From Alkalihalobacillus sp. CinArs1 (GTDB lineage Bacteria > Bacillota > Bacilli > Bacillales > Guptibacillaceae): a stretch of 64,000 nt of DNA. The notes under the pieces were generated by a model that saw only the letters and a program-made list of their open reading frames with translations, had not been told where the DNA came from and ran no database searches. The stretch covers positions 186,001 through 250,000 of the forward strand of contig NZ_CANDOB010000001.1 in assembly GCF_947387515.1 (NCBI RefSeq), in the 5' to 3' direction. Shown in pieces: positions 30,270 to 35,843 of this stretch; position 1 is the stretch's first letter; the number at the start of each line of letters is the position of its first letter. The position numbers and the translations under genes were made by a program.

Positions 30270-30719
30270 TTACAACATATCGATAAAGCGTTGAGAAATC
30301 AGAGGGGCATGTTCAGGCTTCTTACAAATAATTAAGATTGTATCATCCCCACTGATATTTCCCATTATTTCTTCCCAATCTAAATTGTCGATCAATGCTC
30401 CTATAGCGTTCGCATTTCCTGGTAACGTCTTCATAACGATTAAATGATCAGCATCATCAATACTAATGAAAGCATCAGTTAACGTTCTTTTTAGTTTTTG
30501 CAGAGGATTAAATCGCTGATCGGCTGGAAGACTGTACTTATACCTACCATCAATCGTAGGTACTTTTACGAGATGGAGTTCTTTTATATCTCTTGAAACA
30601 GTCGCCTGTGTAACATTAAACCCTGCACTTTTTAAACAATAAACAAGCTCGTCCTGAGTTTCTACGTCCTGATTGGCTATTAGCTCTCGGATTTTTATAT
30701 GGCGTTGACCTTTATTCAT
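30270..30719 (-). CDS. argR: Arginine repressor ArgR/AhrC
   Basis: A 149-residue hexameric repressor/activator of arginine metabolism. The N-terminal winged helix spans about 1-70 ([33 protein letters not shown]). The C-terminal arginine-binding and oligomerisation domain contains [16 protein letters not shown] and [11 protein letters not shown]. The ATG is preceded by GGAGGG. It is probably cotranscribed with recN, but also has a plausible promoter of its own after the tlyA terminator. Confidence 0.96.
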
Positions 30720-30842: not shown

Positions 30843-30871
30843 TTAAAAAAAGGATACACGTATGTATCCTT
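30843..30871 (-). terminator. Intrinsic terminator after tlyA
   Basis: Minus-strand AAGGATACA pairs with TGTATCCTT, loop TACG, then a seven-T run. Confidence 0.92.
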
Positions 30872-31677
30872 CAAAGTTGATTGTGTGCCTGATCGACTAC
30901 TTCAACTACATTTACTTCTTCTAAACCTTCATGAACCTGTTTCCATCCAAGGTGCAAAAGAAACTCAATATTCCCTTCCCCACCTGTAATAGGAGAGAAC
31001 GAAAGCCCTTTGACTTGATAACCAGATTCAGTCACAAATTCGACCATATCTTCTAATACTCTTTGGTGTACTTTTTTGTCTCGGACGATTCCTTTTTTTC
31101 CTACGTCGTCTCTTCCAGCTTCAAACTGTGGTTTGACAAGTGCGACAACTTCCCCACTCGTTTCAAAGATCGTCTTCAAGACAGGAAGGATAATTTTAAG
31201 AGAAATAAACGAGACATCGATGGAAGCAAATTCAGGTAATCCACTTGTAAAGTCATCTTTCGTACAATATCGAAAGTTTGTTCTTTCCATGACTACCACT
31301 CTGTCATCTACACGAAGTTTCCATGCCAGCTGATTGTATCCAACGTCGAGTGCATAAACTGTTGAAGCCCCGTTTTGTAAGGCACAATCTGTAAAACCAC
31401 CTGTTGAAGAACCGATATCAAGGACGACCTTATTCCTTAAATCAAGCTCAAATGTCTCGATTGCTTTCTCTAACTTGAGACCGCCTCGCCCAACATAACG
31501 GAGTGTGTCGCCTTTGACATGGAGAACAATATCATCGTTAACTTTGACTCCTGGCTTATCTAATCGCTCGGATTCAGAATACACCAAACCCGCCATAATC
31601 GCTCTCTTTGCTTTTTCTCTTGTATCGATCAGCCCTCGATTAACAAGGAGCACATCTAGTCTTTCTTTTTTTGCCAT
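30871..31677 (-). CDS. tlyA: TlyA family rRNA (cytidine-2'-O)-methyltransferase
   Basis: A 268-residue protein (B. subtilis YqxC). An N-terminal S4-like RNA-binding domain (about 1-60, RLDVLLVNRGLIDTREKAKRAIMAGLV) is joined to an FtsJ-type SAM methyltransferase with VVLDIGSSTGGFTDCAL and FASIDVSFISL. In mycobacteria TlyA methylates both 16S and 23S rRNA; the older name haemolysin A is misleading. It starts six bases after dxs ends and closes the xseA-to-tlyA gene run, followed by a strong terminator. Confidence 0.92.
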   Translation of the reverse strand: MAKKERLDVLLVNRGLIDTREKAKRAIMAGLVYSESERLDKPGVKVNDDIVLHVKGDTLRYVGRGGLKLEKAIETFELDLRNKVVLDIGSSTGGFTDCALQNGASTVYALDVGYNQLAWKLRVDDRVVVMERTNFRYCTKDDFTSGLPEFASIDVSFISLKIILPVLKTIFETSGEVVALVKPQFEAGRDDVGKKGIVRDKKVHQRVLEDMVEFVTESGYQVKGLSFSPITGGEGNIEFLLHLGWKQVHEGLEEVNVVEVVDQAHNQL

Positions 31678-31683
31678 GTTACT

Positions 31684-33576
31684 CTATGCCCTCTTTTGCT
31701 TTGCTGGTAATATTTTCTTTGCCTTTTCAGCAATATCTTCCGCAGTCAACCCAATTTCTTTCAACAGTTCTCCTACACTTCCGTGCTCAATATACGTATC
31801 AGGAATACCCATTCTCTCAATCGTTCCATGCTGGTAACCACTGTCATTTACATACTCTAAAACAGCACTTCCGAAACCACCTTGCAAAATCGATTCCTCA
31901 ACAGTAAGCATCGGGATACCTTCTTGGATAAGCTCTGACATCATTTTCTCATCAAGTGGTTTGATGAAGCGCGCATTGATGACTCTTGCTGAAATGCCTT
32001 CCTTTTCCAATTGCTCGGCTGCTTTTAATAAATCTTGTAGGGTAGGACCGAATGAAAGAAGTGCAATATCAGATCCTTCTCTTAACACTTCCCAAGAACC
32101 GATCGGTATTTCTTTTAGTTCTTTATCCATTGAAACCCCGATGCCATTTCCACGAGGGTAGCGAATTGCAATAGGACCACTATTATATTTGTATCCTGTG
32201 TAGACCATGTTCTGTAGCTCATTCTCGTCTTTCGCCATCATTAAGACCATGTTTGGTAGGTGACGAAGGAATGAGATGTCGAATACACCTTGATGAGTTT
32301 CACCGTCAGCACCGACTAGGCCAGATCTGTCTATAGCGATCAATACATTCAGGTTTTGACGGCAAACATCATGAACTAATTGGTCATATGCACGTTGTAA
32401 AAACGTAGAGTAAATAGACAGTACAGGTTTTAATTCTTGAGTAGCAAGTCCCGCAGCCATCGTTGTTGCATGCTGCTCTGCGATCCCTACATCAAACAAT
32501 CTGTCTGGAAATTGATTCTCGAATGCTTCCCACTTAGACCCAACTGTCATAGCAGGGGTAATAACTGAGATCCGATCATCTTTTTCAGCTAGTTTTCGAA
32601 CCGTTTCACTAACTACCTTGCTGTAACCAGGGGCAGCAGCTTTAGGCTTGATTTGCTCTCCAGCTTCGATTTTGTATGGACTCACACCGTGCCACGTCCC
32701 AATTTGATCGTTTTCAGCGGGGTGATAGCCTTTTCCTTTTTTAGTCAGAACGTGAACGATCACTGGTCCTTTTGTTTTCTTGGCATAGTTAATATTTTCC
32801 ATAAGAGCGTCCACGTCATGACCATCCACCGGACCGAGATACGTAAAACCTAGCTCTTCAAAAAAGATTCCAGAAACTAAAAGGTATTTCATTGCATCCT
32901 TCACACGTTCAGCTGTGGAAGCTAATGCGCCACCGAACGCGGGAATTCTCTTCAATAAGTATTCAAGTTCCTCTTTTGCTTTATGATATTTACCAGCAGT
33001 CCTCATTTTCCCAAGAACATTGTGGAGTGCACCAACGTTAGGGGCAATGGACATTTCATTATCATTCAATATGACGAGCATATCTTTTTGTTCGTGACCA
33101 ATATGGTTGAGTGCTTCTAGAGCCATTCCACCCGTTAATGCACCATCACCGATGATCGCCACGACATTTTCGTCTGTTCCTTTAATATCGCGGGCAGCCG
33201 CCATTCCCATAGCTGCAGAGAGAGAAGTCGAACTATGACCAGTTTCCCATACATCATGTTCACTTTCATTCCGTTTTGGAAACCCACAGAGTCCTTTATA
33301 TTTTCTGAGAGTATCGAATTGCGTACTTCTACCTGTCAAAATCTTATGGACGTACGCTTGATGTCCTACATCCCAAAGAAATTTATCTTTCGGACTATCA
33401 AAGATTTTGTGTAACACGATCGTGAGCTCTACGACACCAAGATTCGGTCCTAAGTGTCCCCCTGTTACGGAAAGTTTGTTAATCAAGAACTCCCTAATAT
33501 CTTCTGCTAACTCTGTCATTTGTTCAACGTTATATTTTTTTAAAAATTTCGGATTCTCGATTTTTTCCAAATCCAT
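31684..33576 (-). CDS. dxs: 1-deoxy-D-xylulose-5-phosphate synthase
   Basis: A 630-residue thiamine-diphosphate enzyme that condenses pyruvate with glyceraldehyde-3-phosphate, the first step of the MEP isoprenoid pathway. The cofactor motif [18 protein letters not shown]...ILNDN is at about 150-180. Conserved [10 protein letters not shown] and [18 protein letters not shown] lie in the second half. GGGGAGG precedes the ATG. It sits downstream of ispA in the same direction, with the OLE RNA and oapA inserted between the two isoprenoid genes. Confidence 0.96.
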
Positions 33577-33605: not shown

Positions 33606-34205
33606 TTACGCTTGCTTCTTTTTCTTCTTGGACTGTTTTGCAACCATCTTGATTTTGAACGTTTTTTCAATTAAGTATAAGAATCGACCTACTTGAAAGA
33701 TGATTTGTGTAGAAAAATGAATTGCAAACGTTTTACCGAGGGCTTTTCCCCCTACAGTCAAGGCAGCGACAACACTGGTAAATACTACTGATACTATATA
33801 TTGAAACAGAGATCCTTCGTCATGTCCAAGTTGAAGTGTCAACTGAACGACAACGGCAGCTGCTGCAGTACCACTTATGATACCCGAAATGTCCCCGATC
33901 ACGTCATTACAGAAACTTGCCACGCGGTCTGCGTTTCGTGTAATGAAGATAGCATGCTTTGCTCCAGTCAGTCGTTCCGCTGCCATCGCATGGAACGGCA
34001 CTTCATTGGCAGCAGTGGAAGCTACTCCTATTGTATCAAAAAATATTCCTATAAGAACGATCAGTAAAACGACGACCATTCCGAGTGCCCAGGTTACGCC
34101 ACTCAAAACAGCTGTTGATATGATTGAAAAAATAGCCGCTAACACAAGTGTGATAACGGCAATCGCTAAACTCCAGTTTATGGACTTTGATATCGAAGCT
34201 TTCAT
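33606..34205 (-). CDS. oapA: OLE-associated membrane protein OapA
   Basis: A 199-residue integral membrane protein with about four hydrophobic segments: roughly 11-33, 35-60, 108-128 and 135-155. Between them is a conserved-looking [22 protein letters not shown] stretch, and a strongly basic tail ([10 protein letters not shown]) ends the protein. It follows a long structured noncoding region directly and precedes dxs. That is the arrangement reported for OapA, the membrane protein that binds OLE RNA in Bacillus halodurans. The basic tail could help RNA contact. AAGGAG lies seven bases before the ATG. The assignment rests mainly on context plus topology; the middle motif is also reminiscent of DUF21-type metal-transport domains. 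Confidence 0.82.
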
Positions 34206-34260
34206 CTTTACTCCTTGTGAATATGAAATAAAAAGAGGTGTTCAGCATAACAGGTGAAAC

Positions 34261-34919
34261 ATGAGGAAGTTCAATTCCCTCATCCTGTCAAGTGAACAAC
34301 CTCGTCGTTATGTATCGCAGAGTGGTCACTTAAAGAGTAAAGACTGCGGCTTAGGTCCAGTAGGTTTTCCCAAACGGATACCTGAACGTCGCCGTCCAGG
34401 CGGTTTCCCTTTACATCCGTCTTAGCGTGTCACCATTGGCTAGACTGGATTACCACTTAGTCCGCACTATAATCCCCTTTAAGTGTCACTCGGAACAGTC
34501 TAGGAGTTTTCCTCAACAGTCCTGGTCAATTCCTAGCCTCTTTTGCAGAGCAGATTTCATATGGGTGGTAGAAAAAGCATGCTGGCCTAGCAACGCCTTT
34601 CCAATAAACCATAATCCCCTCTAGCTCCACTCAAGGCAGGCTACGCTGTTCAGCCGCATCCCTGGCGACTGAAACAGGTTCATACCCCATTTCATAGCTG
34701 GCGGCGTTAACCGCGCAAGCTACAAGAATAGGCCTCCGCGGAAGCAGGGTCAACGCCCACATGCCTTTGTGGATCGCCCTGCGACCTTAACTCCCAGCAT
34801 CGACCCAAGTCTGGGCGACTCAAGCCAACACCAGGAACTTCATCGATGTGCCCTATGGCGGATTTTTAGGCCCGCCTTCAGAATAGCCGGACTGACTAGA
34901 ATACTGCACCACTCAGTCT
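34261..34919 (-). ncRNA. ole: OLE (ornate, large, extremophilic) RNA
   Basis: About 660 bases between ispA and oapA hold no plausible gene but are rich in G+C-balanced, hairpin-forming sequence unlike the AT-rich spacers around. The sigma-A promoter at 34926-34954 points into it. The 5' GAGTGGT (complement of 34908-34914) can pair with the 3' ACCACTC (complement of 34320-34326), closing the whole RNA. A hairpin (34261-34283) marks the 3' side. No terminator separates it from oapA, so a longer transcript is likely. Size, location by ispA/dxs and the adjacent OapA-like gene fit OLE RNA, a membrane-associated RNA linked to stress tolerance and Mg2+ responses. Ends are estimates. Confidence 0.87.
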
Positions 34920-34925
34920 ATTTGT

Positions 34926-34954
34926 ATTATACCACAATACTTATATATTCTCAA
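34926..34954 (-). promoter_or_regulatory. Sigma-A promoter of OLE RNA
   Basis: Minus-strand TTGAGA (34949-34954), exactly 17 bases, then TATAAT (34926-34931). Transcription would begin near 34919, just after the ispA stop. It is one of the best promoter matches in the window. Confidence 0.82.
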
Positions 34955-34961
34955 TTTTGTT

Positions 34962-35843
34962 CTAATGATCTCTTTCTATAATAAATTTAGCAAGAGAACG
35001 CAACCGATCTGTACCTACCCCAACTTGTGCTAAATGCAGTAGCGCCTCATCATAGTGAGAGGCTAGTTTATTTTTTGCACCTTCCAAAGTAAGAAGCTTT
35101 GGATAGGTACTCTTTTTATTCGTTTCATCGCTTCCAGGTAACTTCCCAATCTTTTCCTGGTCACCCTCAACGTCTAAAATGTCATCGCTAATTTGAAAAG
35201 CAAGTCCTAAATGTTCTCCAAATTGTTTTAAATGAGACATTTGTTCATCAGTTGCATCTCCGATTACCGCACCCGCTAGAATCGAGTATACAAGCAGTTT
35301 TCCTGTCTTATGATGGTGGATGTATTCAAGCTCTTCAAGAGTGAGCTCTTGTTCTTCACCAGAAAGATCGGCTATCTGTCCGCCAACCATCCCGCTAGGA
35401 CCAGCAGCACGTGCCATAAGTGTTATTAACTTCACTTTCTGATCGTCTCGTAACAATGAATCGCTAATAACCTCAAAGCTCTGTGTAAGTAATGCATCTC
35501 CTGCAAGGATTGCTATAGCCTCACCAAACACTTTGTGATTAGTTGGCTTTCCCCGTCTCAAGTCATCATCATCCATAGCAGGGAGGTCATCATGGATCAG
35601 CGAATACGTATGAATCATTTCTACGGCGCTCGCAGCATGAAATGCTTTTTCTTTCGAAGCGCCAAACGCTTCTGCTGTTGCCAACATAAGAATAGGTCGA
35701 ATCCGCTTCCCTCCTGCATCTACAGAGTATAGCATCGCCTCTTTCAACTCACTCGGCATTTCTAGTTGTGAGATGAACCCATTCAACTCTCCATCGATTA
35801 ATTTCTTACATTCTTTCATGTAAGTAGTCAAATCTGACGTCAC
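34962..35843 (-). CDS. ispA: Farnesyl/geranylgeranyl-type polyprenyl diphosphate synthase
   Basis: A 293-residue class I prenyltransferase that makes farnesyl diphosphate from IPP and DMAPP. The first aspartate-rich motif is [17 protein letters not shown] and the second [16 protein letters not shown] lies near the N terminus. Length is close to B. subtilis IspA/YqiD (296). It begins with GTG at 35843, overlapping the xseB stop by four bases (GTGA). OLE RNA transcription starts about 40 bases after its stop. Confidence 0.95.

Follow-up and report, generated by a model that had tools for sequence, protein, structure and literature searches.

A complete OLE RNA locus in Alkalihalobacillus sp. 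CinArs1 and a second OapA encoded apart from OLE

What is encoded in the long gene-free interval that lies between ispA and the gene for a small membrane protein in Alkalihalobacillus sp. CinArs1, and what does a second copy of that membrane protein elsewhere in the same genome do? The arrangement is that of OLE, which is among the largest conserved bacterial RNAs and whose biochemical function is still a puzzle. According to published work on OLE, the RNA forms dimers, binds OapA near P2 and P4a and has been proposed to cross the membrane by way of P3, and it is important in the cold, with ethanol, at high Mg2+ and on poor carbon sources (PMC12265935, PMC11332333, PMC9723947, PMC12054373, PMC12286853, PMC10898510); two of these papers state that ole and oapA nearly always occur in tandem and that one is seldom present without the other (PMC9723947, PMC11332333). 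Here we describe the OLE locus found in the window, which is the whole 64,000-nucleotide stretch of contig that was analysed, and the second OapA, for which we coin the name OapA2, the window protein being OapA1.

Results

The OLE locus

A cmscan search of the whole window returned a match to the OLE RNA model (Rfam RF01071) that covers model positions 1-616 of 616 and scores 528.3 bits (gathering score 50; E 4.2e-152). The match falls within 756 gene-free bases (34206-34961), the minus-strand ispA ending at 34962 and oapA starting at 34205 (Table 1). The gene order is ispA-OLE-oapA-dxs, with OLE directly upstream of oapA and 114 bases between the OLE closing helix and the oapA start. A sequence-only reading of this DNA had proposed an OLE RNA in a gene-free stretch between ispA and oapA, with a near-perfect sigma-A promoter pointing into it, complementary ends, dense hairpin potential, and a four-helix membrane protein with a poly-lysine tail, taken to be OapA, directly after it, and had named the Rfam OLE model as the check. 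The results below confirm this arrangement, the membrane protein showing four hydropathic segments. We conclude that the stretch almost certainly encodes a complete OLE RNA, preceded by a sigma-A promoter of its own, and that the adjoining frame encodes its membrane partner OapA.

Table 1. Positions of the features at the OLE locus (window coordinates) and of oapA2
Feature	Position	Strand	Basis
Sigma-A type promoter, TTGAGA-17-TATAAT, TG ahead of the -10 box	34926..34954	-	pattern scan
OLE RNA	34306..34928	-	extent of the Rfam RF01071 match
Closing helix, 5' arm	34908..34914	-	covariation; energy fold ambiguous
Closing helix, 3' arm	34320..34326	-	covariation; energy fold ambiguous
oapA (OapA1), 199 aa membrane protein, DxxxD motif	33606..34205	-	position, profile, motif
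ispA (polyprenyl synthetase), upstream neighbour	34962..35843	-	open frame and profile match
dxs (DXP synthase), downstream neighbour	31684..33576	-	open frame and profile match
S4 domain and FtsJ-type methyltransferase (TlyA type), downstream neighbour	30871..31677	-	open frame and profile match
Probable argR	30270..30719	-	named from its sequence
oapA2 (G000:C3), 194 aa	L065:7873-8457		plausible ribosome-binding site; outside the window

The promoter agrees with the consensus at 11 of 12 positions, in a gene-free region that holds three promoter-like sites against 2.0 expected by chance, and a comparable element, by a lax pattern, precedes the RNA in 22 of the 27 chosen OLE loci, a subset of those collected that supplied the DNA alignment for both the promoter and the covariation analysis. 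Because the first bases of the RF01071 match overlap the -10 box, the transcript probably starts near 34919. The end complementarity is exact (34914-34908 with 34326-34320), and over the 27 OLE sequences 99.5% of cells in this helix are paired and both sides vary in six of the seven pairs, with none of 500 shuffles as high on either measure and slid pairings at 25-66% paired. The Rfam RF01071 model has the end-helix columns unpaired, and in the minimum-energy fold of the window RNA alone the helix is not formed, its 5' arm pairing instead with 34523-34526; the ensemble probability for this single sequence is about 0.44. Pairing of the OLE 5' and 3' ends is supported, with strong backing from covariation and the single-sequence energy fold to the contrary. 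The RNA has a folding energy of -240.1 kcal/mol (z -5.4), and none of 20 shuffles is as low. A rival reading, in which the stretch serves as a long oapA leader or attenuator and yields no stable OLE RNA, is scarcely credible. It draws on the position of the stretch, immediately ahead of oapA and on its strand, and on a simple scan that turned up no strong terminator in between. Against it stand the full-length OLE match, the conserved end helix, and published work in which OLE RNAs are stable products processed out of longer transcripts.

For the loops used in OLE dimer contacts (an A-rich P4 loop, the P5.1 and P6.1 loops and a self-complementary P9 loop) the window sequence contains candidates, namely an A-rich loop, loops with GCCC and with GGC, and a GGCC loop, with helix names assigned by order only. 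A CCUCCU mimic in P6 is absent from the window OLE, and CCUCCU occurs in five of 94 OLE stretches, related sequences being unweighted. The only other Rfam match over threshold in the window is a glycine riboswitch aptamer (RF00504; 62781-62870, minus strand, 72.3 bits).

OapA1 has four hydropathic segments, a QSKKKKKQA tail and a DVIGD sequence, an instance of the DxxxD motif that is described as distinctive of OapA (PMC11332333). It matches no Pfam or NCBIfam family above cut-off; its nearest Pfam family is CNNM (PF01595), below cut-off at 15.7 against 28.4 bits, and OapA2 has no CNNM match. OLE is found in 43 of 61 relatives and in 225 of the 397 genomes surveyed in the order, and OapA profile matches in 226 of the same 397; a comparison of the two genome lists by eye shows one discrepancy, G221, whose oapA is 30 bases away from the end of a contig. 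In another genome of the same genus the OLE-linked oapA is split over two matches (L067, G004:C9:94712-95300) beside an OLE of 535 bits, which is either decay or a sequencing error. Farther along the window locus lies a frame that, from its sequence, is presumably argR. ArgR is named among the validated or candidate OLE partners in one review passage (PMC12265935).

Other genes of the OLE particle

The genome encodes a 106 aa OapB between map and infA, which matches PDB 7k9b, 'OLE-associated protein B', at E 1e-35. A KOW family search missed this gene, returning two others that are by their places rplX and nusG, and OapB was recognised from its position between map and infA. An OapC/YbxF-type L7Ae protein is encoded after rpoC and matches PDB 3v7e and 4lck at E about 5e-26; it scores 131.2 bits with NF010125 (cut-off 113) and 29.5 bits, under a cut-off of 113, with the YlxQ model, which marks it as of the YbxF and not the YlxQ type. 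The sequence-only reading had proposed a genome search for oapB and oapC homologues, and both types of protein are present. Its suggestion of an extreme or fluctuating host habitat finds no support in any analysis here. One CorC_HlyC, MpfA-like protein is also encoded. With a full-length OLE, OapA beside it, and OapB and OapC-type genes in the genome, the window locus is a complete, ordinary OLE locus and adds one member to a well-described class.

A second OapA without an adjoining OLE

OapA2 is encoded on another contig of this genome (G000:C3:265384-265950) and is 47% identical to OapA1 (178.6 bits). Among the 61 genomes searched with the window OapA, this one (G000) alone has a second intact close match, the other matches of 20-31 bits in several genomes being mostly longer, MpfA-sized frames. 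In one relative (G046) a second oapA is broken, split over two overlapping frames (L066:7423-8095). A scan of named genomes gave seven OapA loci, of which three adjoin OLE (L072, L073, L075) and four do not, namely those of 'Roseburia' sp. 1XD42-34 (L069), Rossellomorea aquimaris (L070), Gracilibacillus sp. YIM 98692 (L071) and a Bacillaceae MAG (L074); each of these four genomes has one OLE elsewhere. We rejected the idea that OapA2 has an OLE of its own: with E values up to 10 allowed, OLE is not matched in the 17 kb surrounding the oapA2 of this genome (L065) or in L066, and at Rfam's threshold it is not matched in the L069, L070, L071 and L074 stretches. The protein at L074:4875-5558 is a divergent orphan, OapA-like, 33% identical to OapA2 and on a very long branch.

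A profile built from four OapA2 proteins (those of this genome, L069, L070 and L071) gave five matches at 293-343 bits among the 397 genomes of the order (G180, G000, G174, G093 and G267), with the rest at or below 229 bits, and each of the five genomes has one OLE with OapA1 beside it. G044, G120 and G313 also gave two OapA matches, the extra one in G044 at 22 bits. Together with three genomes from the separate scan, eight genomes bear OapA2, and all eight carry one OLE. At the order rate of 225 in 397, this co-occurrence would arise by chance about once in ninety by our own arithmetic. It is no more than suggestive, since these genomes share ancestry, three were drawn from a different collection, and the OapA2 branch itself stems from OLE-bearing bacteria. 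In a class sample of 398 genomes that overlaps the order sample in part, OapA2 occurs in G000 only, and in the family of G267 it occurs in two of nine genomes, in different subclades.

Carriage of OapA2 by phages or plasmids was considered and rejected: the viral contigs searched held no relative, and the plasmid search gave one place, the canonical OLE-oapA-dxs locus of Pusillibacter. The phage search gave one contig, labelled as phage from human faeces (L076, MT835614.1), with a divergent OapA in an xseA-tlyA-argR-recN run; about 300 bases separate its OapA-like gene from the preceding frame, no OLE reaches Rfam's threshold in its first 6.4 kb, and the contig looks like bacterial DNA.

History and neighbourhood of OapA2

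In a tree of 75 rows, which keeps identical rows once and leaves out the broken oapA of L067 and the partial frame of L116, the eight OapA2 group together (99/89), with long branches in play. When L072 to L077, which are outside the order or on long branches, are also left out, as they are from the residue comparison, a single branch separates the eight OapA2 from 61 OapA1 (100/99; all 200 bootstrap trees). A recent duplication is rejected, since grouping each OapA2 with the OapA1 encoded beside it in that genome's gene set fails the AU test in four of four genomes (G000, G267, G174 and G180; p <=2.2e-4). Two OapA2 pairs give dN/dS ratios of 0.11 and 0.04, and dS is saturated in a third.

In two genomes of different families, G000 and G267, oapA2 belongs to a merR-merF-merA-oapA2 block, in which the identities between the two are 76% for merR, 67% for the merF-like gene, 59% for merA and 77% for the convergent oapA2. 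NCBIfam cut-offs are exceeded for MerA, MerF and MerR in G000 and for MerA in G267. The G267 block includes a DoxX protein, of which G000 retains a remnant (46% over 41 aa) as a truncated frame before oapA2. An E1-E2 P-type ATPase of 728 aa and further small proteins adjoin the mer-oapA2-doxX block of G267 (L121:9543-13202). Neighbours differ at the other OapA2 loci, and only the near relatives L070 and L118 share an upstream gene, of phospholipase-D type. By eye, no transposase or integrase is evident near the islands in the translated frames of L165-L168. Control of oapA2 by MerR was also rejected, as the palindrome searched for occurs once each in L065 and L121, ahead of merR. From the tree and the neighbourhoods we read OapA2 as an old OapA branch that was probably spread by lateral transfer.

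Residues and predicted structure

OapA2 is 42-54% identical to the aligned OapA1 rows of the order. Both aspartates of DxxxD, D101 and D105, are present in every OapA1 and OapA2 row compared, and I49F, V50I, T64A and R90K separate the two almost fully. Position 157, which adjoins an invariant GGK, is cysteine in 8/8 OapA2 versus glycine in 61/61 OapA1, and D93, fixed in OapA1, is lost in all eight OapA2; P70 and E180, likewise fixed in OapA1, are lost in six of the eight and kept in the two mer-linked proteins. Both mer-linked proteins carry cysteine at positions 89, 107 and 157, of which the one at 89 is also present in the OapA1 of G180. Window OapA1 and three more of the seven rows examined (three OapA1 and four OapA2) have four hydropathic segments, and a fifth in the other three leaves the topology ambiguous. 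The loop-charge pattern is alike in all seven, so an OapA1/OapA2 pair of opposite topology is not suggested. The positive tail of the OapA2 at L065 has 5 K/R versus 12 in OapA1, with differing cut points. The structure model of OapA2 (pLDDT 85.5) had no Foldseek match at E 0.001, and its nearest PDB structure is the archaeal CNNM MtCorB, a weak match (E 0.013, TM 0.46).

Discussion

By published analogues, the OLE RNA of the window would dimerise, bind OapA near P2 and P4a, sit in the membrane, and recruit OapB, OapC and bS21; for this locus the analysis establishes family membership, the promoter sequence, end-helix covariation and the partner genes, and we infer the transcript, the dimer, the binding and the transport alike. 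We consider it most likely, at about even odds, that OLE acts as the regulatory component of a unit in which OapA would transport divalent metals, in the role that the CBS and CorC domains have in MpfA. Bearing against it are the CNNM match below cut-off, the weak Foldseek result and the presence of one MpfA-type protein in the same genome.

OapA2 is a natural paralogue with fixed differences and offers a probe to separate RNA binding from metal handling. The best-surviving account, to which we give slightly less than an even chance, is that OapA2 is a laterally spread, RNA-independent metal transporter that derives from OapA and acts outside the OLE particle. It would fit with the OLE-free stretches that surround oapA2, the position in the mer block of G000 and G267, the loss in 8/8 of the D93 that is fixed in OapA1, and the shorter positive tail, subject to the differing cut points noted above, whereas the presence of OLE in all eight OapA2 genomes and the retention of DxxxD and other OapA-wide residues speak against it. 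For now this account is the more cautious of the two when set beside a mixed OapA1/OapA2 assembly.

That alternative, which we consider unlikely, has OapA2 as an accessory subunit of the single OLE particle of its host, with mixed OapA1/OapA2 assemblies and changed metal handling. In its boldest form, judged equally unlikely, OapA2 would be a mobile alternative subunit that enters the host's single OLE ribonucleoprotein, its added cysteines would turn that particle from Mg2+ homeostasis toward heavy-metal stress, and OLE particles would be re-equipped by horizontal gene transfer. The eightfold co-occurrence with OLE, the kept DxxxD and the shared loop-charge pattern point this way, as do published passages in which dimeric OLE might bring about a tetramer of OapA (PMC12286853) and the number and orientation of OapA are called an unsolved problem (PMC12265935), a puzzle on which OapA2 bears directly. 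However, the co-occurrence is only suggestive, as these genomes are relatives of one another and OLE is widespread in the order, and several OapA1-fixed residues have changed. We found no mention of a second OapA in the open-access OLE literature searched, subscription literature lying outside its scope; if the accessory-subunit reading is true, OapA2 would be the first accessory gene known in that literature to plug into OLE, and a direct handle on OapA stoichiometry.

Finally, OapA2 might be a decaying passenger without function, and the broken copy in G046, the remnant of the DoxX-like neighbour in G000 and the patchy presence of OapA2 would agree with this, but intact frames in eight genomes and the low dN/dS of the two estimable pairs make it quite improbable.

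Transporters of the EbrA/EbrB type are paired small proteins of opposite topology. Like them, OapA1 and OapA2 are paralogous small membrane proteins that share a genome, but their similar loop-charge patterns do not suggest opposite orientations. A relation between OapA and CNNM is published (PMC11332333), and the CNNM/CorC/MpfA transporters (MtCorB, PDB 7m1t and 7m1u) are the best Foldseek matches of the OapA2 model, though with a weak score, and OapA2, unlike them, has no CBS or CorC domain and has DxxxD. The window locus is like OLE/OapA of Halalkalibacterium halodurans in its full-length model match, in OLE directly before oapA among isoprenoid genes, and in the OapB and OapC-type genes of its genome; it is unlike it in that P6 lacks the CCUCCU anti-Shine-Dalgarno mimic reported there, and otherwise differs at the locus by sequence variation only. 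Compared with the OapA family, OapA2 keeps DxxxD but stands apart in its lack of linkage to OLE, its separate clade, its C157 and, in two genomes, its place in a mer block. The window OLE locus is itself of known class, and what is new here is an OapA2 that has no adjoining OLE and that is encoded next to mercury-resistance genes in two genomes.
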